Virus record (IMG/VR): IMGVR_UViG_3300046168_000085 | Coordinates: 16,389-80,388 of that record | Direction: 5' to 3' (one strand) | Source of the DNA: a virus | DNA length: 64,000 nucleotides | Shown: positions 11,978 to 44,585 of the stretch, in pieces | Layout of the letters: the number at the start of each line of letters is the position of its first letter | Position numbering within the stretch: position 1 is the stretch's first letter | Program-made: the position numbers and the translations under genes | The notes under the pieces: model-generated | The model's database searches: none | What the model saw: only the letters and a program-made list of their open reading frames with translations | Told to the model about the DNA's origin: nothing

Positions 11978-11991
11978 GGTATTATTATAGA

Positions 11992-12300: not shown

Positions 12301-12336
12301 ATCAATAAATATGGTATATATGAGTTTTTATAATAA

Positions 12337-12579
12337 TTACTTCTTCGCAACTTCTACATCAACCGAGTGCCAAGATTTTTCACACCCAACACTTTTACAA
12401 GCCTTTTTAATTGCTTCCGCAGTTCCTCTTGCTTTTACAGTTTCGGTGTGTCCTTTTTTGATGTCAACACCATCCACTTTTGCACTTTTGGTGAATTTTA
12501 CTTCCCAATTGCTGAATGCTTCATTTAAAAAGTTTTGAATTTCTTCACGGATGATTGATTGTAGTTCTGTTTTCTTCAT
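12337..12579 (-). CDS. Small hypothetical protein (80 aa)
   Basis: It begins M-K-K-T-E-L-Q-S-I-I-R-E-E-I, an N-terminal helix commonly seen in small proteins of T4-like marine phages, and continues with a basic beta-alpha-beta-like domain holding two Cys (V-G-C-E-K-S-W and an earlier K-A-C-K). ATG start at 12579. Function unknown. It sits between astA and the DUF962 gene, so a phage gene is interleaved with the metabolic ones. Confidence 0.5.
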   Translation of the reverse strand: MKKTELQSIIREEIQNFLNEAFSNWEVKFTKSAKVDGVDIKKGHTETVKARGTAEAIKKACKSVGCEKSWHSVDVEVAKK

Positions 12580-12602
12580 AACAATATATAAGTATTATCC
12601 AC

Positions 12603-14955: not shown

Positions 14956-14959
14956 AATA

Positions 14960-16150: not shown

Positions 16151-16167
16151 ACCTATAAGTATCAAAC

Positions 16168-17539: not shown

Positions 17540-18334
17540 TACTTATTATCCGTACTTTCAAAAATTTTATCGGCAGAACCTGCAATAAATCCGTCAAAAT
17601 TATTATGACGCAATGCAAATTCATAATAGCATCCAGGAATTTCAAATAATTGTCCCTCCTCTGAATCAAACTCAACGGATACATTTTCTGCCATAATACT
17701 TGATTGCTCTAGTCCTTGTTTAACTGAACCTTTTATTTCACCACCTGAATCATTTATTCTATATCCGTTTTCTTTCAAATATGAATTTACCTGTCCAAGA
17801 TTTTCAAACGAAGAACAATCTGTGACACTTATTGTAAAATGATTAACGATAAAACCAAATGTGGCCACCCAAAGCTGCATACTCACTTTCTTCTTTTAAA
17901 AAGTCATAAGTTTCTTTTGTAATCATGCCCCACGGAGTTCCACAATTACAGAAATCAAAAGCATCTAGTTGCTCGTTGGATATTTGGTTAACTAATCTGT
18001 CAATCGTATCTTGTAATTCTTGTGAAAATTCTTCTAATCTTAGTTCACTAATAAATACCCGTGTCAAATCATCATCAGAATGTAAATAATATGTTGCATC
18101 GAGTTTCTTTTTTTCAAATGCTAAGTCTTCAACTTCTGAATATCCACTCTTTACAAAAGATTTGGCAAGAACACTACGATTAATACGTGGATGATTGAAT
18201 GTTCTTAATGCAATATGATCATTCTTTACCGAAGTTCCTTCGTGTTGCTCAATGAGTTTTTTTACTTTAACAACTTGCGGATTTACACGTGAATACATAC
18301 TCCACATATCATCAAACAATTCTCGTATATTCAT
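17539..18334 (-). CDS. DUF1338 protein (2-oxoadipate dioxygenase/decarboxylase-like, frame broken)
   Basis: The two frames together give about 264 aa. The first contains D-H-I-A-L-R-T-F (metal-binding His of the vicinal-oxygen-chelate-like fold); the second contains V-N-H-F-T-I-S-V and then E-I-P-G-C-Y-Y-E-F-A-L-R-H. These are the conserved blocks of DUF1338, whose characterised members (HglS) are Fe(II) enzymes turning 2-oxoadipate into 2-hydroxyglutarate. The frame breaks near 17850-17860. It heads the AST module and its stop overlaps the astD start. Whether it works in arginine or lysine breakdown is open: DUF1338 plus a lysine-like transaminase would fit a lysine route too. Confidence 0.78.
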
Positions 18335-20253: not shown

Positions 20254-21723
20254 TCAACTTTTTTGCCAAACCCACACTGGTTCTCCGAAACTTCCTTCAC
20301 GTTCGTGATACTCGGTGTCCATTTTGCTATCGTCAGTATCTTCCGCAGTTCCGATTCCAAGGCAGTTTGGTCGTTTTGCCATTTCCATTCCAAAGCACTC
20401 TACATAACTTGCATTATTCTTTTTACTAAGATGCTCGTTCATTGGATCACAAATTTTTAACCACTGCTTCCCACCCTTCATACCTTTGCTTGTGGTATTT
20501 ACATCACTTATATTTACCATCAGTAACCCACCTTCTTTTAATGTTGTTAAAACATTATTTAATGCTTTGTGCAAAAAGTCTTTATTCCAACGATCAATAT
20601 TTTTATGACGAACCCAACTTTGTGTGTCATCATAACTATATCGTTCCACGGAAAAATAAGGTGGACTGGTAAATATTAAGTCAACCGAGTCTTTATATTC
20701 TGTCAAATCTGCATCTTCTGCCGGTGAAGGAATGAAATCAGTTTCTTTTTTCTTACCTAACCAGGATTCATAGAATTCTTTTTGTTTATCATATATAGGA
20801 TGATTTTCTGTCCGTGGGTCAATGCCAATATATTTTGTTGCTTTACTTGCATAAAAACCACACAATCTGTCACCCCAACCCATGCTAAAATCTAATACAA
20901 CTTGTGCATCTCTATACTTTTCTGGTTCGTTAGTTTTTTTATCCAATATTATTTTATCATCTTCATCAGTTTTATGATGAGTTGGTACATTATCTCTAAA
21001 TTTCTTTAGTAATGAATCAGGATAAAACTGATAAATTAATTTTGCGACATTGGGTTTGAATTGACTGCAAATGTATTTACGCAATCCTATACTTGTTCTT
21101 AAAGTAGATTTATCAACTTTTTCTGCTTTTAATGTAAACAAACTTCCCATTAAACTTGTCATGAATTCTTTGCTATTCCATGTACGCAAGGGTCCAGGTG
21201 ATACACTTCCATCTACACTCCAACGATTTTCTTGCTGAAAATAGTTACTTGCTTTATTACCTTTATTGTTTCTTTTTAAGATACGATCACTTAAAGGAAA
21301 TTTTTTTGAATATACAGACCTAGCAAACCAAGGAGTTTCTGTGAATAAAGAATCTTGTCTTTGTTTTTTTACTATGCTAGAACTTTTTTCGTGTTTTTCT
21401 TTTTGCTCATTCGTCATTTCAAACGATTCGTAAAAAGATGTATTTACACTCTTCGCCTCTTCCGTAGTTTCGTTTAAATCTTTGTATGTGAATTTTTCCA
21501 ATAAATGAAAATCTTTTTCTGCTTCGTATGGACAGATCTCCATATACGGAAGATCATATTGCATTAAAATTTCTGCAAGAGTTTCTTTTATATCTTCTTT
21601 GTCGTACTTCTCTTTTAATCGTGTCCAATTTACTGGATCAATTTCATAATAAGGTTTTACTAGTTTTCCCTCGGAATCTTTATATTCTTCTTTTATATAA
21701 TTTTTAAACTCTTCAATAATCAT
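20254..21723 (-). CDS. SAM-dependent DNA methyltransferase-like protein with TSPPY motif
   Basis: A 489-residue protein. The N-terminal half is helical and of unknown role. The C-terminal half is a class I methyltransferase: motif I V-L-D-F-S-M-G-W-G-D-R at about 276-286, an acidic strand end Y-I-G-I-D-P near 298-303, and catalytic motif IV F-T-S-P-P-Y-F at 351-357, the T/S-P-P-Y form typical of N4-cytosine or related amino methyltransferases. The order SAM motif before catalytic motif is the gamma/alpha-like order. No restriction partner is nearby, so it is likely an orphan enzyme for phage DNA modification or anti-restriction. Confidence 0.8.
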   Translation of the reverse strand: MIIEEFKNYIKEEYKDSEGKLVKPYYEIDPVNWTRLKEKYDKEDIKETLAEILMQYDLPYMEICPYEAEKDFHLLEKFTYKDLNETTEEAKSVNTSFYESFEMTNEQKEKHEKSSSIVKKQRQDSLFTETPWFARSVYSKKFPLSDRILKRNNKGNKASNYFQQENRWSVDGSVSPGPLRTWNSKEFMTSLMGSLFTLKAEKVDKSTLRTSIGLRKYICSQFKPNVAKLIYQFYPDSLLKKFRDNVPTHHKTDEDDKIILDKKTNEPEKYRDAQVVLDFSMGWGDRLCGFYASKATKYIGIDPRTENHPIYDKQKEFYESWLGKKKETDFIPSPAEDADLTEYKDSVDLIFTSPPYFSVERYSYDDTQSWVRHKNIDRWNKDFLHKALNNVLTTLKEGGLLMVNISDVNTTSKGMKGGKQWLKICDPMNEHLSKKNNASYVECFGMEMAKRPNCLGIGTAEDTDDSKMDTEYHEREGSFGEPVWVWQKS

Positions 21724-21767
21724 TTTACTATTATTATATAAACTAAGATATTAGTCAAACTCAAAAA

Positions 21768-23120
21768 TTAGCACTCAGTTACATTTACTGCCAATCCACC
21801 TTTACTTGTTTCTTTGTATTTGCTTTTCATATCAGCACCAGTTGCTTTCATTGTTTTTATTACGTCATCCAATGAAATTTTTGTATCGTTTTCATTAAGC
21901 ATTGCCATACGACTTGCATTAATTGCCTTTCCAACTCCAATTGCATTTCGTTCTATACATGGTATTTGTACAAGTCCTGCAACAGGATCACAAGTTAATC
22001 CTAAATTATGCTCCATAGCAATTTCGGCCGCATTTTCTACTTGCTTTAAAGTTCCTCCTACAATTTCAGTTAATGCACCGGCTGCCATACTACAAGCAAC
22101 TCCCACTTCTCCTTGGCATCCTACTTCTGCACCTGATAAACTTGCATTCATTTTGTATAACATAGCAATTACTCCAGCCGTTAATAAAAACTTGATTTCC
22201 CAATCTTCTGATTTTTCGTGGACATACTCTTTAATATACATCATTGTTGCGGGAATAATACCAGATGCTCCGTTGGTAGGAGCAGTAACAACACGATTCA
22301 TAGCTGCGTTTTCTTCGTTAACCGCAATCGCACAAATGCTTGAATAATCAAGAAATGCTTGATTATCAAGTTCATTGTTTTTAAGAAAGTTTTCGTACAT
22401 AATCGCAGCTCTTCGTTCTACATTTATTGTACCAGGAAGCATACCTTGAGTTGTTAATCCTCTGTCTACGCATTCTTGCATTATTCTCCATATTCTGCGT
22501 AATTCTGTTTTGGTTGTTTTTTCTTTTCTGAAACACTTTTCATTTTCCAACACCACATCAGATATTTTCAAATTACGATTTTCTGCGATAGTAAATAATT
22601 CTTCCGCACAAGAAAATTCATTGGTGAGTTTTCTTTTGGAAGTTTTAACTTTATTCTTTTTTGCGTTACTTTCTGTTACCACAAAACCACCACCAATGCT
22701 ATAATACATTCTCGTAGCAACTTCTTTACTTTTTGTATAAGCATAAAACTTTATTCCATTGGGATGATACGGAAGTTTTTTCTTTTTGTTGAAAATTATA
22801 TCATTCTGCGTGAATTTAATTTTACGAATGCCACCGAGTTTTATTTCTCCGTCAAGAGAATCAACTTCATTTAATTGTTGTTGTTTTACTTGATCCGGTG
22901 CATAATTCAATAAACCGAGTTGAATTGCAATCGGAGTTCCGTGACCTTCACCTGTTAATGCAAGTGAACCAAACAACTCAATTTTGATTGAATCGACTTC
23001 ACCAAATACTTTTTTGTGTTTCAAAAAAGAAACAAACTTTCTTGATGCTTGGATAGGACCTGTGGTGTGTGAACTTGAAGGACCTATTCCAATTTTGAAA
23101 AAGTCAAGAACACTATACAT
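21768..23120 (-). CDS. sdaA: L-serine ammonia-lyase, iron-sulfur dependent
   Basis: Converts L-serine to pyruvate and ammonia. The 450-residue protein has the single-chain SdaA layout: N-terminal domain with G-I-G-P-S-S-S-H-T-T-G-P, then A-P-T-N-G-A-S-G-I-I-P-A and the C-terminal catalytic block. Cys for the 4Fe-4S cluster are visible: C-Q-G-E-V-G-V-A-C, then the pair in L-T-C-D-P-V-A-G-L-V-Q-I-P-C, spaced 11 apart as in characterised enzymes. The frame is intact and full length. The start overlaps the acyl-CoA dehydrogenase stop by one base, placing it in the same operon as the beta-oxidation genes. Confidence 0.95.
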   Translation of the reverse strand: MYSVLDFFKIGIGPSSSHTTGPIQASRKFVSFLKHKKVFGEVDSIKIELFGSLALTGEGHGTPIAIQLGLLNYAPDQVKQQQLNEVDSLDGEIKLGGIRKIKFTQNDIIFNKKKKLPYHPNGIKFYAYTKSKEVATRMYYSIGGGFVVTESNAKKNKVKTSKRKLTNEFSCAEELFTIAENRNLKISDVVLENEKCFRKEKTTKTELRRIWRIMQECVDRGLTTQGMLPGTINVERRAAIMYENFLKNNELDNQAFLDYSSICAIAVNEENAAMNRVVTAPTNGASGIIPATMMYIKEYVHEKSEDWEIKFLLTAGVIAMLYKMNASLSGAEVGCQGEVGVACSMAAGALTEIVGGTLKQVENAAEIAMEHNLGLTCDPVAGLVQIPCIERNAIGVGKAINASRMAMLNENDTKISLDDVIKTMKATGADMKSKYKETSKGGLAVNVTEC

Positions 23121-24970
23121 TATTCAAGAAACTTGAATGTACCACCTAGAATTTTCTTTGCGAAAGAATAATTCTTTTTGTCGTTATTGTTGCTCATTCC
23201 ACTAAAGTTGTTTTTGATTTTGATTTTTGCTTCACTAAAAACCACATCCATCAACTCAAGATATTCAGCTGCTTTTTCAGGATCATCTTTGATCATGCTA
23301 TCAATACGTAATGCACACGCAGATATTACAAACAACTCAGTTCCAATTTCAGTCAAACGACCAAGAAGCATTTGTTGTTTGTCTAATGAAGGACCGTATC
23401 GTGCCATTGAGTGAAATAGTTTTCTGCTTAATTTCTTGCTTGTTCTTGAAACATAAAGAAGATACTTTTTGACTGCTCCATTTACTCCCGTGGGTCCTGA
23501 ATTGAAAGTTGGTAACCATTGTTTTGGATACCAAGTTGCATAGTGTATTCCTGCTCCGATAGCTGCCTTTAAACGAACCATCAATGGAAGACGTGAATCA
23601 AGAACTGCTCCGGCTGCTTTAAGATGTGGATCAAGTGCTTCACGTGCCAAAAGCAAACGCATAATTTCACTTGAACCTTCAAAGATCATATTGATACGAC
23701 AATCACGAAGAAATCTTTCCACAGGAATTGGATCAGAACCACGATTGCGAAGTGAGTCAGCAGTTTCGTAACCACGACCACCACGTATTTGCATCGTTTC
23801 GTCTGCTACTTTCCATGCTTCTTCTGTTCCCCACATTTTACACATTGCAGATTCCACACGAATATCTGCTTTTTTACCATCCACTAAACTTGATGTAAAA
23901 AGAACGATACTTTCAGTTGCGAAATTCTTGGCCGCAATCTTAGCAATTTTATCACCAATTGCTTGGTGTTTACCAATAGCACATCCCCACTGTTCACGTG
24001 ATGAACCCCACTCACGACAAATCTTTAAGCAACTACGCATAAGTCCCACACAAGCAGCCGGTAATGTAAGACGACCTGTATTCAATGTGCTAAGTGCAAC
24101 CTTGAGTCCTTTGCCTTCTCCTGCTACCAAATTCTCCACAGGTATCTTTACATCGGTAAATCTTACAACACCATTATACAATGCTTTAAGACCCATAAAA
24201 CGACATCGAGTAACTACTTCTACACCAGGTGTATCCATATCAAGAATAAATGCCGAAATGCTTTTACGCATTTTGCCTTTAATTTCTGTATCAGGTGTTC
24301 TTGCCATTACAATAATAACACTTGCTTTTACTCCATTTGTACACCAAAGTTTTTCTCCGTTTAAAACATAATGAGTTTTATCTTCTGATAACTCTGCGTA
24401 AACCGTCATTTGTGCAGGATCACTTCCTACAGTTTCTTCAGTCAACGCAAACGCACTAATTTCTCCTTTACCAAAACGAGGAAGATGCTTTTTCTTTTGT
24501 TCGTCTGTTCCGTAAAGTAACAATGGTTGAGGAACTCCGATACTTTGATGTGCTGATACTAACGCAGTTATATTTCCGCACACTTCACCCAACTTCATAG
24601 CCGCACGTGAATAATTTGTTTGTGATAAACCACGACCACCATATTCCGTTGGAATTTTAATTGCGAATGCACCAATCTTTGCAAGTTCTTTAAATACTTC
24701 ATCAGGAATTTCACCTTCACGATCAATTGCGTCTGCATCTACATACTTGTCTAACACATCACCCAATTCATTCAAGAAAATATCTCCTTTTGCTTTGTCT
24801 TCTGCTTTTTGTTTCGGAAATGGATAAATCAAATCATAATTTGCTTCACCTGTAAACAAACCACCACTAAAACTTTTTGTTCCTTTTTTTCCTTTATCAC
24901 GTGCAGCCTCGGCTGCTTCCAAGGCATCTGCTTTACCCTTGGACATTTTTGAAGTATCTATTTCACTCAT
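23120..24970 (-). CDS. Acyl-CoA dehydrogenase (VLCAD/ACAD9-like)
   Basis: FAD-dependent first step of fatty-acid beta-oxidation: acyl-CoA to trans-2-enoyl-CoA. 616 aa, longer than short/medium-chain enzymes (about 390) because of an N-terminal helical extension and a roughly 170-residue C-terminal domain, as in very-long-chain types. Visible motifs: F-A-L-T-E-E-T-V-G-S-D around 174-184, L-W-C-T-N-G near 208-213, Q-I-R-G-G-R-G-Y near 394-401, and catalytic Glu431 in F-E-G-S-S-E-I. Intact frame. It overlaps sdaA by one base and follows fadB by 2 bp. Confidence 0.95.
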   Translation of the reverse strand: MSEIDTSKMSKGKADALEAAEAARDKGKKGTKSFSGGLFTGEANYDLIYPFPKQKAEDKAKGDIFLNELGDVLDKYVDADAIDREGEIPDEVFKELAKIGAFAIKIPTEYGGRGLSQTNYSRAAMKLGEVCGNITALVSAHQSIGVPQPLLLYGTDEQKKKHLPRFGKGEISAFALTEETVGSDPAQMTVYAELSEDKTHYVLNGEKLWCTNGVKASVIIVMARTPDTEIKGKMRKSISAFILDMDTPGVEVVTRCRFMGLKALYNGVVRFTDVKIPVENLVAGEGKGLKVALSTLNTGRLTLPAACVGLMRSCLKICREWGSSREQWGCAIGKHQAIGDKIAKIAAKNFATESIVLFTSSLVDGKKADIRVESAMCKMWGTEEAWKVADETMQIRGGRGYETADSLRNRGSDPIPVERFLRDCRINMIFEGSSEIMRLLLAREALDPHLKAAGAVLDSRLPLMVRLKAAIGAGIHYATWYPKQWLPTFNSGPTGVNGAVKKYLLYVSRTSKKLSRKLFHSMARYGPSLDKQQMLLGRLTEIGTELFVISACALRIDSMIKDDPEKAAEYLELMDVVFSEAKIKIKNNFSGMSNNNDKKNYSFAKKILGGTFKFLE

Positions 24971-24972
24971 TG

Positions 24973-27063
24973 TTATTTATCCTCGTAGAATTTTTTGTTT
25001 GTTTTTGCGTATTCAAGAAGCATATCACACGGAGTAAAGTATGCATCTTTTTTTGCTAGTTCTTGTAATTTTTGAACAACTTTTAATGCTCCTAAATTAT
25101 CAAGATACGAAATTGGTCCTCCACGAAATGGAGCCCATCCAGTTCCCATTATCATTCCAAAGTCTACATCCTTTGGACTATTTACAACTTCTTCTTGTAA
25201 ACAACGAACTGCTTCGTTAACCATAATTAAAATTAAACGATCAACAATTTCTTCATCTGCAATTTCTTGATTTATATAAGCAGATTGGATTGCTGATGTA
25301 GGTAACTTAGAACTTACACCTGTTGATTTTCCATTTGTATATTTGTAAAATCCACGACCACTTTTTTTACCTACATCTTTGTTGTCGATCATTAACTTCA
25401 AAAACTCTGATTTAGGAAAATTAGTTTCAAGACGATTCAGCAGATCATCTGCGACGTGTTGACATACATCCCCTCCTACTTCATCAATTAAACGAAACGG
25501 TCCCATTGGCATTCCAAACTTACGCAACAACTTATCGACTCGTTCAATGTCTGCACCACACGAAACCATATAAACTGCTTCAATCAAATATGGCATAAGA
25601 ATTCTATTAACAAGAAATCCAGGTGAATCTTTTACCACCACAGGAAGTTTACCTGTCTTTTTAACAAACTGAGTTGCTTTTAAAACGGTTTCCTCGGAGG
25701 TACATTCTCCACGAACCACTTCCACTAATTTCATTTTGTGAACAGGATTAAAATAATGTATTCCGACCACTCGTTCTTTATGTTGCATTTTTTCTGCGAC
25801 ATCTACAATACTAAGTGCTGATGTGTTTGTTGCAAGAATTGTATCATCACGAACAAGTGTTTCAAGTTCCGCAAATAAATCCTGCTTGATTTCAAGTTGC
25901 TCAATCGCAGCTTCTACTACTAAATCAACACTTTTCATTGGCATAGATTCGGTGATAGGTGTAACATTATCAAACTTACTTGATGCTTCTGCTTTAGTCA
26001 TCACTCGTTTGCTTACAGCTGCTGAGTACAATTTACTTATGCTTGCAATTCCTTTTGCTACAAACTCTGGTTTAATATCCTTGAGCAATACTTTGATTCC
26101 TCTTGAACTAATCCATTGTGCAATACCTGCACCCATCACTCCTGCTCCTATAACCGCAGTATTTTTTACTTTAAAGTCTTTGTCACTTTTTGTTTTCTTG
26201 CTTCGTTCTTGTAAAAAGAATATGTTCACCAAATTGTTTGCTACATCTGAAGTAAGAAGTTCTGCAAATGCTTTTTGTTCAAGTTTAAGTGATTCTTCAC
26301 GACTTACACCAAGACCTTTCACCATAACATCAATTGCTTTCAACGGAGCAGGATAAACGCCACCTGTTGTTTTAATAACATTTTTGGTTGCTTTGCTTTT
26401 TGCGATATACTTCAACGGAAAACGATTTAATAAATGAGACTTGTATTTCTTTTTTCCATTTAGTAACATTGCTTTTGCAGATGCTTCCAAATTTTCTTTG
26501 TATACCGCACGATCAATCATTCCAAGTTTAAGTGCCAACTTTGGAACAACCACTTTACCTGCTAGAATAATTCCCATTGCTCCAGGTAACCCAATCATTC
26601 TTGGTAAACGAGTTGATCCACCCCAAGCAGGAAGAATTCCAAGCATCGTTTCTGGTAAACCAATTTTAGTTGCTGAATCTAATGTTGCAACACGATGATC
26701 ACACGCAAGTGCAAGTTCATATCCACCACCCAAACACGCACCGTGAATTGCAGCCACAGTTACACACGACAAATCCTCAATACGATCAAATGTATGCTGA
26801 CCAAGTTTTACTAAATAAGAAATTCTTTCAGGTGTAGGATCATCTGCGAATGATTTCAAATCCGCACCTGCGATGAATATACTTGGTTTAGCACTTTGAA
26901 ATACCACTCCTTTGATCGTCTTACTGCTATCTTCTATAAAATCAAGATGATCATTTAATTCTGCAAACATATTTTCATCAAACACGTTAGCAATTGAATT
27001 TTCTTGATCAAATGTTATTGTAACAACATCATTTAATTGTTCTAGTTTAATTGACTTGCTCAT
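24973..27063 (-). CDS. fadB: FadB/FadJ-type multifunctional enzyme (enoyl-CoA hydratase / 3-hydroxyacyl-CoA dehydrogenase)
   Basis: Carries out steps two and three of beta-oxidation. The hydratase domain has the oxyanion/catalytic block G-A-C-L-G-G-G-Y-E-L-A-L-A-C-D and G-L-P-E-T-M-L-G, with both catalytic Glu. The dehydrogenase domain begins at A-V-I-G-A-G-V-M-G-A-G-I-A (NAD site, about residue 309), followed by G-I-H-Y-F-N-P-V catalytic His and V-K-D-S-P-G-F-L-V-N-R. Total 696 aa against about 715-729 in bacteria, intact. Adjacent to fadA (1 bp gap) and acyl-CoA dehydrogenase, as in a bacterial operon. Confidence 0.95.
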   Translation of the reverse strand: MSKSIKLEQLNDVVTITFDQENSIANVFDENMFAELNDHLDFIEDSSKTIKGVVFQSAKPSIFIAGADLKSFADDPTPERISYLVKLGQHTFDRIEDLSCVTVAAIHGACLGGGYELALACDHRVATLDSATKIGLPETMLGILPAWGGSTRLPRMIGLPGAMGIILAGKVVVPKLALKLGMIDRAVYKENLEASAKAMLLNGKKKYKSHLLNRFPLKYIAKSKATKNVIKTTGGVYPAPLKAIDVMVKGLGVSREESLKLEQKAFAELLTSDVANNLVNIFFLQERSKKTKSDKDFKVKNTAVIGAGVMGAGIAQWISSRGIKVLLKDIKPEFVAKGIASISKLYSAAVSKRVMTKAEASSKFDNVTPITESMPMKSVDLVVEAAIEQLEIKQDLFAELETLVRDDTILATNTSALSIVDVAEKMQHKERVVGIHYFNPVHKMKLVEVVRGECTSEETVLKATQFVKKTGKLPVVVKDSPGFLVNRILMPYLIEAVYMVSCGADIERVDKLLRKFGMPMGPFRLIDEVGGDVCQHVADDLLNRLETNFPKSEFLKLMIDNKDVGKKSGRGFYKYTNGKSTGVSSKLPTSAIQSAYINQEIADEEIVDRLILIMVNEAVRCLQEEVVNSPKDVDFGMIMGTGWAPFRGGPISYLDNLGALKVVQKLQELAKKDAYFTPCDMLLEYAKTNKKFYEDK

Positions 27064-27064
27064 T

Positions 27065-28312
27065 TTATTCTCTTTCCAAAATTATTGCACCACCTTGGCC
27101 ACCACCAATACAAAGTGAAATTAATGCTCGTTTACCACCACGACGTTCAAGTTCCTTCAAAGTTGTAAGTGCAATACGTGAACCACTTGAACCAACTGGA
27201 TGACCAAGAGCAATTGCTCCTCCATTGACATTCAATTTGGCAAAATCAACTTCACCCAAGTTTGTGGTTTTTTTCAGTTGCTTGCAAACCGCAAGAACTT
27301 GGGCAGCGAATGCTTCGTTGATTTCAATTAAATCAAAGTCATCAAGTTTATATCCAGTTTCTTCGCATACTTTCTGAATCGCATAAACTGGTCCTAATCC
27401 CATTCTTTCAGGGATCACATCCTGCATATGCGTATGCGGAAATTCTACCCAATGGATTCCAATTGTTTTGCTTAACTGCATTTCATCTGCAATCAACAAT
27501 GACACTGCTCCGTCTGTAATTTGCGATGCGTTGCCCGCAGTTACAGTTCCTTGTTTGCGATCAAATACAGGTTTAAGTTTTTCCAACGCACCCATACTTT
27601 GCTCACCACGAATTCCATTGTCTGCATCAACGAATGTTCCGTCTGCGAAATAAAATGGGGAAATCTCAGATGACATTTTTTCTATTGCCACAAATGCTTT
27701 CAAATGAGATTCTAATGCAAACTTATCTTGATGATATCGTGTTACTCCACTTTCTCTTGCGATCAATTCAGCAGTTTCACCCATATTCATTCCAACCGTG
27801 ATATCACTCAATCCTAATCGTAAACTGATTATAGGTGCGAAGTCTTTTGGACGGAAACTCAATATCGTATGAAGACGATCACGAAATGTTCTACACTTAC
27901 TTAACTTGGTAAATTTATCAACTGCACTTGAACGATATAAAAATGGTGCTTGTGTCATATTCTCCGTTCCCCCACTTAAATAAACACTTCCACGATCAGC
28001 ATTAATTTTATCAGATGCTTGTGTAATTGATTCAAAACCACTTGCACAATTACGATGAACCGTATAAGCAGGAACACTCTTGGGTACTCCCGATTTAAGT
28101 GAAATTACACGTGTGATGTTTGCGGTGTCTGCTGGTTGACATACACAACCCATTACACTTTCGTCAATTACATCGGGATTCAAATCCATCTTTGCAAACA
28201 ATGCTTTTGTTGCAGAAACTCCGAGGTCTGCAGCTGATGTTTTAGCAAAGGTCGTACCCATTTTACAAAAAGGAGTCCGAGTACCATCTACAAGATATAC
28301 ATTTTTTTTCAT
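27065..28312 (-). CDS. fadA: Acetyl-CoA C-acyltransferase (thiolase, FadA-like)
   Basis: Last step of beta-oxidation: thiolytic release of acetyl-CoA. 415 aa, intact. The nucleophile is Cys89 in H-R-N-C-A-S-G; N-E-A-F-A-A-Q, G-G-A-I-A-L-G-H-P-V-G-S-S-G-S-R (catalytic His) and C-I-G-G-G-Q-G (second Cys) follow in the usual order. First gene of the fadA-fadB-acyl-CoA dehydrogenase-sdaA run. It could also act as a biosynthetic or long-chain (FadI) thiolase; the neighbours favour degradation. Confidence 0.95.
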   Translation of the reverse strand: MKKNVYLVDGTRTPFCKMGTTFAKTSAADLGVSATKALFAKMDLNPDVIDESVMGCVCQPADTANITRVISLKSGVPKSVPAYTVHRNCASGFESITQASDKINADRGSVYLSGGTENMTQAPFLYRSSAVDKFTKLSKCRTFRDRLHTILSFRPKDFAPIISLRLGLSDITVGMNMGETAELIARESGVTRYHQDKFALESHLKAFVAIEKMSSEISPFYFADGTFVDADNGIRGEQSMGALEKLKPVFDRKQGTVTAGNASQITDGAVSLLIADEMQLSKTIGIHWVEFPHTHMQDVIPERMGLGPVYAIQKVCEETGYKLDDFDLIEINEAFAAQVLAVCKQLKKTTNLGEVDFAKLNVNGGAIALGHPVGSSGSRIALTTLKELERRGGKRALISLCIGGGQGGAIILERE

Positions 28313-28394
28313 AACCGTTACATTATATATATCACAATTTTATACATATCGTCAACTATATAACGAACAATATACATAAATGGTTTATATTAAT

Positions 28395-28589
28395 TTATGA
28401 AAAAAACTTTGAAAGCAAGTGAATCCATATTCCGATTGAATCCACAACCACAAAATAAAACGCAAGAGCAGCCAACCAATACATTTTTCTGCCGACAAAA
28501 AAGATGATACTTAAAAAATTAACAATCGCAAAAACAACAAATCCCCAACCAATCAATTCTGGAAAAGGAAGTATTCCTCCTCCGATCAT
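28395..28589 (-). CDS. Small membrane protein (64 aa, two to three helices)
   Basis: An almost wholly hydrophobic protein with segments at about 8-32 and 36-60 and a G-R-K-M-Y-W linker. It lies between the oxidoreductase gene and fadA. Small hydrophobic phage proteins include holins; the two-helix layout would allow a class II holin, but no endolysin is next to it and the call is only a possibility. Confidence 0.5.
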   Translation of the reverse strand: MIGGGILPFPELIGWGFVVFAIVNFLSIIFFVGRKMYWLAALAFYFVVVDSIGIWIHLLSKFFS

Positions 28590-28606
28590 TCCAAGAATTG
28601 CAATGA

Positions 28607-29708
28607 CTATTTCAAATTGTTTGCTGTGTGTTTGCTTCTGCCATTTCTAAATCCAAGTTTATTTAACTCTTCAAGCAACACATCTGAAATTTCAATTCCG
28701 TTTTTATGAACATCAATAGATGTATTATATTCAGTTTCTCCTGGAACTAAAACTTCTTCACCTCGTTTACTTTTGCTTGATTTTATTTCACGCATCACAT
28801 CACCAACATTTTTTTTGAAATCTTTAAGTCCGCAAAGTTTTCTGGATCAATGCAAATAAAGAAATGACCAATATCATAATTTGGATTTTTGTATTTCCTT
28901 CATACAAGTCCACTTAGTTTGCTCATATAAGCACCACTTTGAAATGCCGAACACATAAGTTCTATTGCAATACTTAAACCAGAACCTTTGTGTCCTCCAT
29001 CTGGTGTCAACGCCGCAATTCCTTGTTTTAACCAACGCAATGATCTTTCAAATGTTAGATTTTGATTTTCAGAAACTATCGCACAATTAGGAACATAGTT
29101 GTCTGGTGTTTTTCTTGCCATTACTTCCAAATCACCTCTTTGATAAACTGATGTTGCACAATCAATACTAAACGGATATTTTTCATCAGATGGAAATGCT
29201 ATTGCGTATGGATTCGTACCCATCTTTGGTTCTACTCACCATGAGGAGCAACCGCAGGTCGTGCGTTTGTAAAACTCATTCCCACTAAATTATGCTGAGT
29301 TGCATAACGACTATAATAACTTGCAATTCCGTAATGTGAGGAATTTCTAACCGCAACACAACTAATTCCATGTTCTTGAGTTTTTGCAATTGCTTGGTTC
29401 ATTGCATACTTGCCAACGATTTGTCCAAGTGCATTGTGACCATCAATAGTTACACAGGCTTTGTTGTCACGAACAATCTCGGGAGTTGCATTTACATCGA
29501 TTACACCATCTTGAATTCGTTTTATATAATAACTAAGTCTGCTTAATCCGTGTGATTTAAATCCAAGTTCGTCAGCACTTAATAATACATCAGCACATAC
29601 ACTTGAATATTTGCTTGGTACTTTGTTTTTTTCAAATACCCACTTCGCAAACGCAATTGCATCTTTAAGTTTTATTTTCACTTTGCTCTTTCGATTTTCT
29701 AATTTCAC
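28607..29708 (-). CDS. Malate/L-lactate dehydrogenase family (Ldh_2) oxidoreductase, frame broken several times
   Basis: Joined frames give about 355 aa, the normal family length. Blocks in order: V-P-x-x-Y-S-S-V-C-A-D-V-L-L-S-A-D, G-F-K-S-H-G-L-S-R-L (substrate site), R-N-S-S-H-Y-G-I-A-S-Y-Y, S-F-T-N-A-R-P-A-V-A-P-H-G, then M-G-T-N-P-Y-A-I-A-F-P, G-G-H-K-G-S-G-L, and the tail N-Y-D-I-G-H-F-F-I-C-I-D-P and P-G-E. Single-base breaks lie near 29235, 28909, 28880 and 28825. The family reduces 2-oxoacids (lactate, malate, ureidoglycolate, sulfolactate) with NAD(P). Substrate unknown. The start may be the GTG at 29681 rather than the ATG at 29708. Confidence 0.85.
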
Positions 29709-30075
29709 GTGCTTTTCTGATTTTCCTACGCATATACGGTTTCAGAAAATAATGACCAATGAATCCCTTGATAGTTGGTTTACCCACTTGCACTCTTAGT
29801 TTATTTTCATAACGAGTCATTGGACAATCTAATACTCTTGAAAAGGAAATTAATATAATAAACGAACACAAAGGCAAACATACATACCACGGAAATCCAA
29901 ACGGTGTTAAACCCTGAAATGCAAGAATGAAAAATGCACTAAAGTTACCAATTACAACCACCCAATGCAATAGAACTACAATCAGTAGTTTAAGATGCCT
30001 TAAAGGATTGGTTGGCAAAAATCTAAGAAACCGTTTTTCGTCAGAAGGTTCTGTTATGTTTTCATCGTTCTCCAT
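29665..30075 (-). CDS. Membrane protein with two helices and a basic tail
   Basis: A 136-residue protein: acidic N-terminus, hydrophobic segments at about 28-55 and 62-83, then a very basic C-terminal tail (K-P-Y-M-R-R-K-I-R-K-A-R). It overlaps the start of the Ldh_2 gene by up to 44 bp, less if that gene starts at 29681. No family is recognised. Confidence 0.55.
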   Translation of the reverse strand: MENDENITEPSDEKRFLRFLPTNPLRHLKLLIVVLLHWVVVIGNFSAFFILAFQGLTPFGFPWYVCLPLCSFIILISFSRVLDCPMTRYENKLRVQVGKPTIKGFIGHYFLKPYMRRKIRKAREIRKSKEQSENKT

Positions 30076-30093
30076 ATAGAATAAATATAAAAA

Positions 30094-30315
30094 CTATTCT
30101 GTTTTATTTTCTAATTCTTTTAGATTTTCGGTCAACCAATGTGTGTGCCAATTATTTTTATGATGACAAACCCAAGACCATCTTGCTTTGTCTTTGCCTA
30201 TGTCTTCTCCTACCTTTTCGGACTCAATCCACTTGTGTTTGTTTATTTCGTTAGTTTCGTCAACAACATGACGATAATATAAACTTTTGTCGTATAGCTC
30301 TTGGTCGTAGTCCAC
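30094..30315 (-). CDS. Small hypothetical protein (73 aa)
   Basis: A charged protein rich in His, Trp and Lys with a W-S-W-V-C-H-H-K-N-N-W-H-T-H-W segment that is unusually dense in His and Trp and could bind metal. It follows nrdB by 24 bp. No family is recognised. Confidence 0.5.
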   Translation of the reverse strand: MDYDQELYDKSLYYRHVVDETNEINKHKWIESEKVGEDIGKDKARWSWVCHHKNNWHTHWLTENLKELENKTE

Positions 30316-30339
30316 TAACTATATATATGTACATATCAA

Positions 30340-31347
30340 TTAAAAATCGTCAACTAATGCAGATTCATCTTGATAATCAATAACTCTTGTTTCAAAAAAG
30401 TTCTTTTGTTTGCGAATATCAATAACTTCACTTAACCAAGGAAATGGATTGTTATCACTATCATAGCGATATTTCATATTTAGATTTTCCAATCTACGAT
30501 TAGCAATAAACTGCATATACTCAACGAACATTTCAGAATTTAATCCAAGAATACCTCTTGGTAATACATCTTGTGCATACGAAATTTCCAATTCAACTGC
30601 TTGTTTTAGAACTTCTGTCAACTCAGTTTCAAATTTGTCGGTCATTAAATCAGGATTTTGTTCTCGGATTTTATTCAACAAAGTTGTTCCAAATTTGATG
30701 TGAATACTTTCATCACGAAGTGTATATTGAATTTGCTCTGCGATACCTGGTATTTTATCACTTAGTGCGAGTAACATTGCAAATCCACTGAAAAAGAATG
30801 TTCCTTCGCATACAACCCAATATGTAAATGCGGCCTTGTACAACTCTCGTTTTCCTTCAATAGTAGATGTATCGATATTTGCTTCATTCAATCCACCTGT
30901 TACTTGTATAAGAAAATCATCTTTTGCTTTGATAGATGGAACCGTTTTATATGCTTCGTATACCTCACCTATATCCAAGTCTAAACTATCACAGATATAA
31001 ACTACAGTGTGATTGTGCAAGCACTCTTCATACATCTGTCTTGCCATATATTGTCTACATTCAGGATCAGTAATGTACTTGGATAATGTCATAAGATTGT
31101 TTGCAACCAAACTTTCACTTCCTGCAAAGAAACCAAGACATCTCTTAATAACCAAACGTTCATCTTCACTCAATGCATCATCAGGTGATGATTTCCAATT
31201 TTGAACATCTTTTGTCATCGGTACATCTGTTGGTACCCAGTTGTTTTTGACACCTTGTTCATACAGATCCCACGCCCATTTATGTTTATGAGGGAGAATT
31301 TGATTTACCCCCTCTGTTTCTTTTCCTAGTAGTTCTCCAGTTTTCAT
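30340..31347 (-). CDS. nrdB: Ribonucleotide reductase small subunit, class Ic-like (no radical tyrosine)
   Basis: 335-residue NrdB with a complete metal ligand set: Glu78, Glu108, His111, Glu181, Glu213, His216. The sequence around the second ligand pair is Y-E-E-C-L-H-N-H-T-V-V-Y-I-C-D-S-L. It closely follows the Chlamydia class Ic subunit (E-E-A-V-H-T-H-T-F-L-Y-I-C-E-S-L), and so do the following blocks and the N-F-F-E-T-R-V C-terminus. The radical Tyr position (His111 plus 4) is Val115 here and Phe127 in Chlamydia. It therefore probably uses a tyrosine-independent cofactor (Mn/Fe or Mn2). It works with NrdA at 33469-35954. Confidence 0.95.
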   Translation of the reverse strand: MKTGELLGKETEGVNQILPHKHKWAWDLYEQGVKNNWVPTDVPMTKDVQNWKSSPDDALSEDERLVIKRCLGFFAGSESLVANNLMTLSKYITDPECRQYMARQMYEECLHNHTVVYICDSLDLDIGEVYEAYKTVPSIKAKDDFLIQVTGGLNEANIDTSTIEGKRELYKAAFTYWVVCEGTFFFSGFAMLLALSDKIPGIAEQIQYTLRDESIHIKFGTTLLNKIREQNPDLMTDKFETELTEVLKQAVELEISYAQDVLPRGILGLNSEMFVEYMQFIANRRLENLNMKYRYDSDNNPFPWLSEVIDIRKQKNFFETRVIDYQDESALVDDF

Positions 31348-31382
31348 AATAATATATATAACGATTCAGTAGTTAAAAAAGT

Positions 31383-31730
31383 TTATAATGATTTCAAATT
31401 TTGTTGTTTTAAACGATACACAAGTAACCCAAGAATAGCAAGACCAACAAACGGTAGCACATAATACCAATTAACAAAAGATTCATTAGATGCGTTCGTT
31501 TGTATTTCAGTTCGTGTTATTGGTTTAGTTTTAGTATTCTGTTTACTTGGTTGTGTTTGTTGAACTATAACAGGGTCATCAAGAACATCCGTGTTTGTAT
31601 CTACCGGTGTTGTAACTTCCGTTGGTTGTTTGGGTACTCCGAGTGTTCCACCGGACGAGTTTAATAACTTGTTTTTAATACCACACGATGTAAGTGTAGT
31701 GATGCATAGTAATATCAATAAATGTTTCAT
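31383..31730 (-). CDS. Lipoprotein with C-terminal membrane helix, unimolecular-spanin candidate
   Basis: 115 aa. N-terminal lipoprotein signal with lipobox L-T-S-C (Cys16), then a roughly 65-residue Thr/Pro/Gln/Asn-rich linker, then a C-terminal transmembrane helix (about 87-106) and a short basic tail. Outer-membrane lipid anchor plus inner-membrane anchor in one chain is the architecture of u-spanins such as T1 gp11, which fuse the membranes at lysis. The linker lacks the usual beta-rich or coiled-coil body, so a different membrane-tethering role is possible. Good AAAGGAG ribosome site before the ATG. Confidence 0.6.
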   Translation of the reverse strand: MKHLLILLCITTLTSCGIKNKLLNSSGGTLGVPKQPTEVTTPVDTNTDVLDDPVIVQQTQPSKQNTKTKPITRTEIQTNASNESFVNWYYVLPFVGLAILGLLVYRLKQQNLKSL

Positions 31731-31795
31731 ATATAATTCTCCTTTATTTAGAAGAACAATATACCATATTTTATTGTGTACGTAAAGTAATTAAA

Positions 31796-31894
31796 TTATT
31801 TCTTGTCGTGACAAAGACAATCACATTTGTTGTCTTTGCAACACTTAACAAAAAAGCATTTAATTTTACAAATAATTTTTTTGATCAATTCCAT
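31796..31894 (-). CDS. Cysteine-rich micro-ORF (32 aa)
   Basis: ATG at 31894 opens a 32-codon frame whose product has seven Cys: a basic helix-like start (M-E-L-I-K-K-I-I-C-K-I-K-C) then V-K-C-C-K-D-N-K-C-D-C-L-C-H-D-K-K. The C-x-C-x-C-H cluster looks like a metal-binding knuckle or a disulfide-rich peptide. It fills the only gap between two envelope-protein genes. No Shine-Dalgarno sequence is evident, so translation is uncertain. Confidence 0.4.
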   Translation of the reverse strand: MELIKKIICKIKCFFVKCCKDNKCDCLCHDKK

Positions 31895-31914
31895 TGTTAT
31901 TATAAATATTAAAT

Positions 31915-32388
31915 TTAATTATTATATTCACGACATTCGCAGTCTTTTATTTTACAATTAGGATTGATCATTCCTGCTCGTTTGAATGTAAGTTTTACAA
32001 ATTCCTCAAAAAAGAAAACATAAGCAGCTGCATCATAGTTGTCCATTGCTATTGTAATTTCTTTTTCGTATGTTCTCATCCACTTGGTATATTCATCAAA
32101 CTTATCAGCATCAAAATGAGGTCCTTTCAAATCGTATTGATGAATCAATAATGCCAAATTTAATTTTGACTTTTTCAATGTTGCAAATCTTGCGATGTCT
32201 TTAGAAAACTTTGCTCGTTCTCGTTTTTCCTTTTCGTATGCTTCGTAAGATGCTTGTAATTTCGGATCAACGATGTCTATCCAAGTTTTACTTTCTTTCT
32301 TTATAAACCCATCACCCTTGGCACAATAAAGCACCAAGGGTGATAAAAATAAAAATGTAACCTTTAAAATAAGACTAACGAGTCTCAA
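31915..32388 (-). CDS. Secreted hypothetical protein (157 aa)
   Basis: N-terminal signal peptide (basic start, hydrophobic core to about residue 21, then C-A-K-G), possibly lipidated although Tyr precedes the Cys. The mature part is helical and charged and ends in a Cys-rich tail (N-C-K-I-K-D-C-E-C). The gene overlaps the protease gene upstream by 4 bp. The D-A-A-A-Y-V-F-F-F-E-E-F pattern loosely recalls the lipoprotein at 998-1423. Confidence 0.55.
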   Translation of the reverse strand: MRLVSLILKVTFLFLSPLVLYCAKGDGFIKKESKTWIDIVDPKLQASYEAYEKEKRERAKFSKDIARFATLKKSKLNLALLIHQYDLKGPHFDADKFDEYTKWMRTYEKEITIAMDNYDAAAYVFFFEEFVKLTFKRAGMINPNCKIKDCECREYNN

Positions 32389-33386
32389 TACTTCAACTCA
32401 AATTTAGGAGTGAAATCTTCAAGAGGTAGTTGTCTTAATACTCTCTCGGGATTCCGTGATCGTTCGTTTGGAAGAATTTTAATGCGAAATGGGAAATGCT
32501 TTTGAATTGATTTTTCATCGTCATCGTCATCGTCTGCACTACGAATTACTCCAGAATCTTCAATTTGCATTCCGAGAATGTCATCCATACTTGGCATATC
32601 TTCTTTTGGGTCAATTGCCCACATAATATCATTCTTTTTTGCCCACTCTTTCATTCTACGAACAGGGTACCATTAAATTGAATCCTTCTCCTGCTCCACG
32701 AACAATCATTCCGACATACTTTCCATTTTGCAAATAAACTCCTCCTCCTGAACTTCCTGGAAATGCAGTAACCGTTGTTTGATCGTATTCGTATTTATCA
32801 AGTGTTCTTCCTACTTGAGAAATGATACCAGTTGTCATTGAGTTTGCACCCATTTGACCAAGCAACGAACCAACGTGAAATAAACTCGTTCCGATTGGCA
32901 CAATGCCATCATTAGCATCACTTAAATTAAATTCAACTCCTTCTTTTGCATAATCAGTAGCACGAACCATAAGAAGTGCCAAATCGTGACCATCTTTGTA
33001 ATCTGAGTATTTGATTACTTTGGCATCCATTTTCATTTCACCGACACGTCTGCCTTTTCTACAAGTTCTTTAACAATAGACGCATCATCAAATTCTACAA
33101 GTTTAACTGGACTTCCTCCTTCAATAACACTTCGTACTTTACGAAGATTATCAACAACGTGTGCGGCCGTCCAAACGAAAGTAACTTTTTTTCCGTCTAC
33201 TTCACGGATGATCATTGCTCCAGAACCTTCTGAACTACTATACTTTGCTTTTGCTTTTATAGTAACCGATACATCTTGTAAATGGTCTGCAACTTCTCGT
33301 ACTTGTTTAGCACTCGGAGCTCCTGTTGAAATGTTTACTGAAAATGCCGTAATGGCCACTACTACTAAAAGTTTGATTGCGTTCAT
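32385..33386 (-). CDS. Secreted trypsin-like serine protease (frame broken twice)
   Basis: Joined frames give about 333 aa. A signal peptide (to A-x-S-V-N-I-S-T-G-A about residue 23) is followed by an S1-type catalytic triad: T-A-A-H-V-V-D, then K-D-G-H-D-L-A-L-L, then F-P-G-S-S-G-G-G-V-Y. The first break (about 33054-33057, A run short by one) hides V-E-K-G-R-R-V-G-E-M; the second is an extra base in the GGG at 32665-32667. The C-terminal 90 residues are acidic and non-catalytic, without a PDZ domain. A strong AGGAGGG site precedes the start. Likely periplasmic; the target is unknown. Confidence 0.85.
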
Positions 33387-33468
33387 GAATGCTACCCTCC
33401 TGGGTTTGAGATTGATAATATATCTATATATATTAACCCAAACGCACTTTTAGGTCAATCTTTAATAT

Positions 33469-35954
33469 CTATTGACAACTCTCACACACTTCACCACGCA
33501 TTTTTGCTTCTAAACTGCACAATGAGGGTTCTTCAGATTCTTGTGGATTTTCTGTATCTGTATTATCTGCATTGTGTTCTTCTACATTTGATCCAGTTGA
33601 CTTTTCAATTGCACTTGCCGCCAAATTCCGCAAATAGTAAGTTGTTTTCAATCCACTTTTCCATGCGTGTGTATAAATGTCGTTCAAAAACTTCATACTA
33701 CTTTTGTCGTTGTAAAGATTCAAACTTTGACCTTGATCAATCCACTTTTGACGAGCAGCCTGCACAATCAATAAGTTTGAATTGATCTTGTTGAAATGCA
33801 GTAACATATTTTTCTTTTATCCATTGAGGAATTGAACCATTTAGTTTGCTAAGATCACCATCAACGGTTTTAACCAAGTTGGCAAGTTCTTTTGTCCAAA
33901 TTCCTTCTGCTTTCATATCATTAACAAAGTATTCGTTCATCATTGTAAACTCACCACTTAAAGTAGAATACACAAAAATAACTCCAAAGTTTGGTTCAAT
34001 GCTTTGTGAACATCCTGCGATGTAACTGATTGTTGCAGTTGGAGCAATTGCCATTGTATTGGAATTACGCATTCCTTGTTTGGCAACTTTCTTTTTGAGT
34101 TTGTCCCAATTTTTTCTAAGATTCACTTCGTCAGAATTTCCACGAAGTTTCATAACCTCTTTCCAAGTATCAATCGGAAATGTTCCTTTGCTCCAAAGAC
34201 TTCCTGTGTATGATTCGTAAGTTTCTTTTTCTACTGCCATATCAGACGAAGATTCAATTGCGAAATAAGAAATGTTTTCATAAATTTCATCACTAATACG
34301 AATTGCATCATCACTTCCGTAGTTGACACTAAACTCATAAAACATATCGTGCCAACCCATTGTTCCTAATCCAACAGGACGATGAGTCATATTACTTTTA
34401 CGTGCTTCTTCTGTTGGATAATAATTTAGATCAATAACATTGTCTAACATACGCATTGCCATTTTGGTGCTTTTTTCTAATTTATCATAATCAATAAATT
34501 TTTCACCATTTTTATCTACACCTACGTGTCGTTTCAAATTGATGCTTGCTAAATTGCAAGTTGCAGTTTCTCCGTATTCTTTAACGGTGCGTGTGCCATC
34601 ATCTGCGTGAATAGTGGGTTTGGTATGAAGAAGAATCTCTGTACACAAATTACTGCTATGCACCGTTCCTACGTGCTGATTACTATACCGAATATTACTT
34701 GGGTCTTTGAAGGTTACCCACGGATGACCAGTTTCAAAAATACTTTTCAACATTTTCTTCCAAAGGTCTTTTGCTTTGAGTTCACGAAAAACATTCAATT
34801 CTCCGTCTTGACCTTTTTTAACATATTCCCAATATTTTGTTTCAAATGCTTCACCGAAGATTTCGTGTAACTCAGGAACTTCATTTGGACTAAACAAATA
34901 CCAAGGACCATCTGCTTCTACTTGTTTCATAAACAAATCAGGAATCCAATTTGCAGTATTCATATCGTGACAACGCATTCTGTCATCACCTACGGTTTTT
35001 CGTAATGCCAAAAAGTCTTCAATGTCAGAATGCCATGTTTCAAGATATGCACATCCTGCACCTTTTCTTTTTCCACCTTGATTTACTGCAACGAGCATAT
35101 CATTGTAAAGTTTCCAAAAGTATACAGGTCCTTGATTGATTCCGTTTGTTCCTTTGATATAACTACCTCTTGCACGAAAGTTTGAGATGTCAAAACCAAG
35201 ACCACCTGCGAATTTGCTTTTTCTTGCTTCTTGCCAAATGCCATCAAAAATTCCATCAATAGAATCATCAAAGTATTTAAATAGCAACTGCTGAGTTGAC
35301 TATGAGTTGTTCCACTATTAAACAAAGTTGGTGTGGAACTAACTACATCAAAGCAACTAAGAGTTTCGTAAAACTTTAATGCGTATGCTTGTCGGTCTTC
35401 TGGTTTTTCATTTAATGCCAATCCCATTGCAATACGCATCCACATTGCTTGTGGAGTTTCCATACGACGTCCTTCTATATGCAAAAGATAACGATCATAA
35501 ATGGTTTGTATTCCAAGATACTTCCAATCTTTTTCTCTATCAATATTAAGTTTCGCACTAAGTTCACGCAAATCAAAACTTTCAAGTAACTCTTCGTTGA
35601 GAATTTCTTCACGGACTAATCTACGCATATTAGTAATAAAACTTTTACGATACTGAAGTTCAAACGCATCACTATCTACTCCTTCACCGAACACTTCTTT
35701 GTAAATTGTATTAAGAAGCATTCTCGCAGCCATATAAGCATAATTCGGTTCAAACTCAATTTTAGACCTAGCACTCATAATAAGTGATTTGTCTATTTCA
35801 GTTGTTGTAACTTTATCGTACAACTTTATTTTGGCATCAATTAATACTTCACTTGCACTTACGTTATCTAAATTTTTGATGCACGTTCGGCACATTCGTT
35901 GATTTTATCAACATTAAATTCTTCGAGTCTTCCGTTGCGTTTTTTTACTTTCAC
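33469..35954 (-). CDS. nrdA: Ribonucleotide reductase large subunit (frame broken three times)
   Basis: Class I NrdA, about 828 aa when joined. N-terminal ATP-cone ([13 protein letters not shown] then K-I-N-E-C-A), then S-S-C-Y-L-N-T substrate Cys, N-L-C-T-E-I active-site Asn/Cys/Glu, A-P-T-A-T-I-S phosphate loop, Q-S-L-N-L and a C-terminal redox pair C-E-S-C-Q. Breaks: A/T run about 35873-35877, T run about 35270, extra base in GG at 33759-33760. The start is the GTG at 35954 with AAGG six bases upstream. Supplies dNTPs with the class Ic-like NrdB; the ATP-cone implies dATP feedback. Confidence 0.93.
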
Positions 35955-36067
35955 TTGTAACCTTTTGTTAGAATTTTATATTAACATTATAATTTAATTA
36001 TATAAATATCATTTACGAAATCTATCGTAAAAATACATACTATATATACAGAATTTTTTAACCAATA

Positions 36068-41979: not shown

Positions 41980-43405
41980 TCATGCAGATATGCCATTGTA
42001 CCCTGAAGCATATTTTATGTCAAGTGGTCGGCCATCAAAATCATGTCTAAGAAGAATTTCAGTATTTTTATACTTCATATTTTCCATATAATAAACAGGT
42101 CTACCCATATTGACGTGTCGTTCAACTAACTTTTCTTTTATTTTTTTGTGGTCTTTACTAACAACTACATATTTGTTGGTTGATTTATCAAGTGCATATT
42201 CAAAGTATTCATACTTTTCACAAAAGTCACGTGTAAAAAATTCATTAAGAAATGTTACATCATTGTACAATTCACGAACTTCAAAAAGTTTTTCACGACC
42301 AAGACCGAGATGTTTATTCCAATATCTTTTTTCGTCTCCGTTGTCGCAATTTTCATATTCTTTCCCAAACTTTCCTTTATCCCATCTATCTTCAATGTCA
42401 CGCAATAAAGTGTTTCCTAGTTTATATGGATTGTTCATATTGTATTTTCCACCAAGAACTCCTGCGTGGTGTTTTGCATAATCAAAAATTCCTTCGTCTC
42501 CTGCAAAGTTACAACTTGCCATAATAAATGAATCCCAATAACTTGCCCAACCTTCGTTGAGAACTTTCGTCATTCCCTGTGGACGATAGTAAATAGATTC
42601 ATCACGAATCATACTAAGAATATTTTGTTGCCAAGGTTCTAAACGACAATGATTAATAATCATTAGCATAATATCACGTTCAGGTCGTAAAGGGAATTTG
42701 TTTTCTGCTAACTTTGTACGTTCTTCTCTGTCTCGTCTTTGCTTTTCAATATAATGAGGAGGATTAACATATTTGTCCATGTACTCTTTAGTATCTAAAC
42801 GAGAAACGTGTTCACGTGGTTGACGGTCTTCAAAGTTGAATTTAGTTGCTTTCTTTAAATTACTTTCACGATAACAAAGTGATGGATCAATTAAATCATC
42901 AATTGCAAGAGCCCGCATTCAAAAAGTCTTTAACTTTTTTGCGGCCGAAACGATCCATATACATACGAATTTTATCACTATGATTTGCCATCACATTCAT
43001 CATATTACGATTCGTGTGTTTGAACATAATATTATTCTTGAAGAAATCACTATGTGCAGTTGCGTGTGCAACAACAGTTAGATTATCAACGATAGGATTG
43101 TTTCGTTGAAGGTACATATAAGTTGGATCGGTATTTACAACCATCTCATAAATCTTACCCATACCAGAATGATACTGATGATGCAAGTTGCTCAAATTGT
43201 TGTCCGAAATTAAATGTGGATAACGAACAGGAAATCCACCATACGCCGCAATCTCAACTATTTCGTCAGCATCAAATTCTTCAATGCACAACGGATATGG
43301 ATCAAGTCCATTATCATAACACGCCTTTAGGCATTCAGGTATAAGAGCAGCCAATTCTGGACACACTCCTTCGTTTAAACTATCTACTTCCCATGCAATT
43401 CCCAT
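41980..43405 (-). CDS. spoVR: SpoVR/YcgB family protein (frame broken once)
   Basis: Joined frames give about 474 aa (E. coli YcgB 510). Family blocks: G-G-F-P-V-R-Y-P-H, H-Q-Y-H-S-G-M-G-K-I-Y-E-M-V, Y-M-Y-L-Q-R-N-N, H-A-T-A-H-S-D-F-F, then after the break D-D-L-I-D-P, L-E-P-W-Q-Q-N-I-L, N-E-G-W-A-S-Y-W and the L-R-H-D-F-D-G-R-P-L end. The extra base lies at or beside CCC 42912-42914. SpoVR acts with PrkA and YeaH in stress and sporulation-like responses; its biochemical role is unresolved. Third gene of the prkA-yeaH-spoVR run. Confidence 0.93.
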
Positions 43406-43409
43406 AATA

Positions 43410-44565: not shown

Positions 44566-44585
44566 AATGATGTATCCCTTGACTA

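Follow-up and report, generated by a model that had tools for sequence, protein, structure and literature searches.

The nrdB locus and its phage neighbourhood

The window analysed here is the stretch of 64,000 nucleotides at positions 16,389 to 80,388 of the IMG/VR virus record IMGVR_UViG_3300046168_000085, a record of 80,388 bases. The element is a marine phage and carries, on the minus strand, the genes for both subunits of a class I ribonucleotide reductase (RNR). The features used in this work are listed below in window coordinates. Clade denotes the group of 58 distinct IMG/VR contigs (at least 64% identity, 48 distinct proteins) to which the phage NrdB belongs, and CtR2 denotes NrdB of C. 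trachomatis.

30340..31347, minus strand: nrdB, class I RNR beta subunit (PRK07209, 433.6 bits; phrog_86)
31114..31116, minus strand: codon 78, GAA, encoding Glu as metal ligand 1 (class Ic has Glu here, class Ia/Ib has Asp)
31015..31026, minus strand: codons 108-111, E-C-L-H, with ligands E108 and H111; C109 invariant in the clade
31003..31005, minus strand: codon 115, GTA (Val), the site of E. coli Y122 and C. trachomatis F127
30799..30810, minus strand: codons 180-183, C-E-G-T, with ligand E181; flanking C180 and T183 invariant and clade-specific
30700..30726, minus strand: codons 208-216, with Y208 (CtR2 Y222), T209 and ligands E213 and H216
30373..30375, minus strand: codon 325, the tyrosine for radical transfer at the C-terminus (CtR2 Y338)
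31383..33386, minus strand: trypsin-like peptidase (split here) and two small ORFs, between nrdA and nrdB
33469..35920, minus strand: nrdA, alpha subunit, broken by single-base indels; intact in relatives

The nrdB ORF encodes 335 aa, with an ATG start, a stop and zero internal stops. An intact, unbroken frame had been claimed in an earlier, sequence-only reading of this DNA; the ORF spans exactly 30340-31347 and runs on the minus strand, a detail absent from that claim. The NCBIfam match, PRK07209, exceeds its cut-off of 309 bits, and the PHROGs match is a ribonucleotide reductase small-subunit family. The best solved relatives were CtR2 (378 bits) and 6y2n (345 bits), with the next at 117 bits or less. 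The top-ranked structures against the AlphaFold model of the protein (pLDDT 83, pTM 0.84) were those of the Mn/Fe NrdB of C. trachomatis (TM 0.87). The predicted fold agrees with that of the Chlamydia enzyme and carries no information on metals. The sequence-only reading had judged the context of the radical site to be close to the class Ic enzyme of Chlamydia, with Phe at that site, and among characterised enzymes this one is indeed the closest.

The indels in the window copy of nrdA lie near 35874, 35273 and 33760, all of them outside nrdB. In relatives nrdA is usually a single gene of about 815-840 aa, and the order of the genes between nrdA and nrdB is conserved in the close ones. The alpha matches family PRK07207 best (1028 bits), and the best-matching solved chain is 5im3; both of these we take to be NrdAz. 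The N-terminus of the alpha is ATP-cone-like. The three catalytic Cys, the Y-Y dyad and the C-terminal Cys pair were present in 51/51 full-length nrdA copies scanned, a set that includes a few from Phe-type neighbours. Each of the 9 viral records examined has one beta; neither a second beta nor NrdI was found in them. Terminase and tail sheath genes were present in the larger clade records checked (records reach 225 kb), which indicates that these are tailed phages.

Within 28900-36000 of the window, nrdA, the trypsin-like peptidase and malate/lactate dehydrogenase are all split by frameshifts and are intact in relatives; single-base indels seem to be frequent in the window assembly. Some nrdA genes in other clade members have unusual structures. 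The frame at L155:1167-4790 has 1208 aa, about 370 aa more than the others, and may contain an intein or insertion. At L132:481-4269 and L141:2275-4752 nrdA consists of two long ORFs, possibly due to an intron, a homing insertion or a split gene.

Other gene sets were also seen in the window, all on the minus strand. After nrdB, positions 20254-30075 hold malate/L-lactate dehydrogenase, thiolase (FadA), a FadB-like 3-hydroxyacyl-CoA dehydrogenase/enoyl-CoA hydratase, acyl-CoA dehydrogenase, serine dehydratase and a DNA methylase. Related contigs (L005, L006, L011, L016, L019, L020, L022) show this order throughout the part of the region that they cover, so the near-complete fatty-acid beta-oxidation set is a stable part of these phages. 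Positions 11006-18334 hold genes of the arginine succinyltransferase pathway (AstB, AstA, class III aminotransferase, aldehyde dehydrogenase, M20 peptidase) and a 2-oxoadipate dioxygenase-like fragment. AstA was found in 0/10 related viral records, many of which end before the region, and the viral-contig scan gave no close relative. The Ast region is either a recent acquisition or a sign of a chimeric contig. At 41980-46691, genes for the PrkA serine kinase, a DUF444 (YeaH-like) protein and a SpoVR-like protein are adjacent, a bacterial stress-operon set within a phage.

Radical site and metal ligands

The claim that the phage encodes an RNR small subunit lacking the radical tyrosine held, with a PRK07209 family protein that has Val at position 115. 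Across the clade this site is Val in 29 contigs and Ile in 29, with Tyr or Phe in 0/58. The codons are GTA (17), GTT (7), GTG (5), ATT (21), ATC (3) and ATA (5), and on the tree Val and Ile interchanged at least 5 times and never gave way to another residue. The use of six codons together with the repeated switching amounts to purifying selection for a beta-branched, non-oxidisable aliphatic residue. Since the window contig contains several single-base indels, one could suppose that an ordinary Tyr codon had been misread as Val115. The probability of such an artefact is negligible: a change from Tyr to Val takes two substitutions, and every other clade contig has Val or Ile, in six codons. The refuting condition named in the sequence-only reading, Tyr at codon 115 on polishing, was checked and did not refute the claim. 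The independent clade contigs refute the artefact, and as all 58 distinct contigs have Val or Ile, a base-call error at this codon is excluded.

The absence of tyrosine from the radical site, a mark of class Ic, was thus seen in 58/58 contigs, and the Phe (or Leu) of the class Ic reference type is absent from the clade, which has Val and Ile only. As cited in PMC3824934, Hogbom 2010 gives Leu, Ile and Val for some R2c proteins.

The alignment to CtR2 also confirmed that the six metal ligands are conserved, E78/E108/H111/E181/E213/H216 corresponding to E89/E120/H123/E193/E227/H230. All six are invariant across the clade, with ligand 1 being Glu in 58/58 contigs. Outside the clade, the combinations of ligand 1 and radical site in distinct loci were Asp with Tyr (53), Glu with Phe (54) and Glu with Leu (1). 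The coupling of Asp to Tyr and of Glu to Phe, Leu, Val or Ile had zero exceptions in the 166 distinct relatives, clade included. The same coupling was seen in 60 further genome loci among the matches listed, drawn from Chlamydiota and the phylum of an Andersenbacteria genome.

According to PMC8463856, Tyr/Asp is the pair of class Ia/Ib, Phe/Glu that of Ic and Tyr/Glu that of Id. Metal preference is not set by ligand identity alone (PMC4118035). The Tyr/Asp pair of class Ia/Ib was not found in the clade, which has Val/Glu. Class Ib was rejected on this pair and on the absence of NrdI from the 9 viral records, and class Id was ruled out because the clade has no Tyr.

We also considered a metal-free enzyme of class Ie type, in which the metal site would be vestigial and the radical would reside on another residue. 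In class Ie the metal carboxylates are lost and a Tyr-derived DOPA occupies the radical-Tyr position (general knowledge; PMC8463856). PMC12918982 (bioRxiv, February 2026) describes 269 viral alphas nearest NrdAz whose betas have Ile or Val in place of Tyr, names this group Ic-like, and leaves its cofactor open, a metal-free one included. The invariance of all six ligands disfavours this option for our clade, Tyr is absent, and NrdI was not found in the 9 viral records. We regard a metal-free enzyme as very improbable, and class Ie itself was rejected with all ligands present and Tyr absent.

Tree placement and second-sphere residues

The tree was computed after removal of the ligand-1 and radical-site columns and is unrooted. 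In an initial version that included distant phage class Ia outgroups, branches as long as 2-7 changes per column were scattered over the topology, and the tree was rebuilt without these outgroups. In the final tree the phage proteins form one clade with 100/100 support, which adjoins the Glu/Phe lineages, lies outside the bacterial class Ic sequences and has a long stem branch (1.35 changes per column). Clustering with tyrosyl-radical class Ia enzymes was looked for and not found, the Asp/Tyr enzymes being one separate, distant group. Among the matches listed, no bacterial locus had more than 54% identity to the phage NrdB.

Named phages were also compared. The best match, Acinetobacter phage MD-2021a (44%), resembles a contig of a bacterial chromosome and carries Asp/Tyr, and Pseudomonas phage vB_PpuM-Illi-2 has this pair too. 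No RNR was found in the 41 kb examined of Microcystis phage Mel-JY01, the nearest isolate by UvsX. Two Glu/Phe neighbours from IMG/VR, L175 (176 kb) and L177 (74 kb), carry a tail sheath gene beside a canonical Glu/Phe class Ic beta, which indicates that the Phe type of class Ic is present in phages too. The equivalent of Y222 is Phe in the betas of these two contigs and likewise in the Andersenbacteria genome L041.

Residues next to the ligands set the clade apart. C109, N112, C180, T183 and T209 are invariant in it and unlike both the Glu/Phe and the Asp/Tyr relatives; F186 and I206 are nearly invariant and also differ from the relatives. Position 109 is Ala in all Glu/Phe relatives, N112 directly follows ligand H111, and position 209 is Ile in nearly all relatives. 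By our own mapping with an offset to E. coli numbering, T209 corresponds to the pocket position I234 of E. coli. The other two pocket residues, F185 and F189, are kept in the clade. Three hydrophobic residues line the radical pocket in PMC3824934. Taken together, the surroundings of the metal ligands appear to be remodelled as a set.

This invariant second sphere, together with the long stem, suggests that the chemistry may have diverged from that of Chlamydia; given Val/Ile115 and the remodelled surroundings, identity with the Chlamydia chemistry is not assured. One form of such divergence would be a separate subclass with a homodinuclear metal-centred oxidant (Mn2 or Fe2), or some other new cofactor, within its own second sphere. 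The five invariant residues and the long stem fit this proposal, and so does the finding of PMC12918982 that no single-metal pattern accounts for where in the ocean the Ic-like group occurs. On the other side, class Ic is marked by Glu without Tyr, an Mn/Fe protein is the nearest characterised relative, and Tyr is retained in Id, the known Mn2 subclass whose oxidant is metal-centred (PMC8463856). We hold this proposal to be the less probable one, at about one chance in four in plain terms. A virus-only class I subclass, defined by V/I115 and by invariant Cys beside two of the Glu ligands, with a metal-centred oxidant whose metal pair, activation route or oxidation state would be unlike Chlamydia Ic, is a tentative suggestion of slightly lower probability.

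Candidate mechanism and known enzymes

W51, Y222 and Y338 form the electron path of the Chlamydia NrdB, and in the alignment they match W37, Y208 and Y325 of the phage protein. With no oxidisable residue at 115, a complete ligand set and this transfer path, the oxidant would have to be carried by the metals, or by a residue for which no RNR precedent is known. Our main reading, which we give a probability of roughly 0.6, is that the protein is the sole phage beta of a tyrosyl-radical-free class I RNR with a metal-centred oxidant, most likely Mn/Fe. The dinuclear site (four Glu, two His) would react with O2 or reduced oxygen species, and a one-electron oxidant would be retained on the metals. 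From there it would travel through W37/Y208 and then Y325 of the C-terminus into the phage NrdA, to its YY dyad and catalytic Cys. Mn/Fe would be the most likely metal pair, as in class Ic, with the beta-branched Val/Ile115 only filling the space of the missing tyrosine.

A metal-centred oxidant of class Ic type is, we infer, the best-supported mechanism. Mn/Fe comes first, given the precedent of class Ic and Glu at ligand 1; by extrapolation the cofactor is probably Mn(IV)/Fe(III), and on the pattern of Glu without Tyr an Mn2 cofactor, the other option of the sequence-only reading, seems less likely than Mn/Fe. The benefit proposed in that reading, resistance to radical scavengers and to iron limitation, would be a conjectural one. 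Against the mechanism stands the frameshifted state of nrdA in the window itself.

The protein could instead be inactive or a helper, a beta-like protein comparable to yeast Rnr4 or to an oxidase of R2lox type, which would need another beta or serve a different function. Loss of catalytic residues is typical of helper betas, there is a weak R2lox profile match (58 bits), and by our own offset mapping V81 and Y176 align with the two residues of the R2lox cross-link. Yet the same mapping gives the same V/Y pair in CtR2, and the R2lox score is far under the 434 bits of PRK07209. All ligands and the C-terminal Tyr are present, an intact nrdA lies a few genes away in relatives, and each record has a single beta. 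An inactive or helper protein is therefore quite unlikely in our view. R2lox, which has no alpha partner and no C-terminal transfer Tyr, was rejected with nrdA nearby and Y325 kept. The protein is a genuine, conserved phage NrdB that lacks the tyrosine and looks functional.

CtR2 (Mn(IV)/Fe(III); 1syy, 4d8f, 4m1i) is a member of the same PRK07209 family with about 50% identity. It shares the six ligands, the Glu at ligand 1, the absence of the radical Tyr and the retained transfer residues. It differs in having Phe127 where the phage clade has Val or Ile, and the second sphere of the clade shows, in CtR2 numbering, the replacements A121C, T124N, M192C, I195T and I223T. The Tyr-type NrdB proteins (Burkholderia, Methylobacillus and others) are of the same family with 46-50% identity to the phage NrdB, but they have the class Ia pattern of Asp at ligand 1 with the radical Tyr and form a separate tree group. 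In the class O (Cyano SP) beta of cyanophages, which pairs with a minimal alpha, Phe or Leu likewise stands in place of the radical Tyr (PMC9531940, PMC6370689). Both are phage proteins and both are tyrosine-less, whereas the site is Phe/Leu there and Val/Ile here. Class O was rejected, the alpha here being about 830 aa, of family PRK07207 and with only 22 bits to the class O structure 7urg.

Matched by description, the window protein fits each feature stated for the marine viral Ic-like clade in the accessible part of PMC12918982, so as a set of sequences the clade is already, if recently, known. In that part of the text we found no account of the ligand-1 coupling, of the second-sphere residues or of a beta phylogeny. 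Relative to it, this work adds a beta tree, the strict coupling of ligand 1 to the radical site, the set of second-sphere residues and ligand evidence against a metal-free enzyme.

Class I ribonucleotide reductases are classified by their mode of oxidant storage. The strict coupling, the six invariant ligands and the clade's own second sphere make the cofactor question of the viral group directly testable, and they single out C109, C180 and T209 as the residues of first interest. If the main reading is true, a tyrosine-free mixed-metal enzyme could suit phages whose hosts live in iron-poor seawater.
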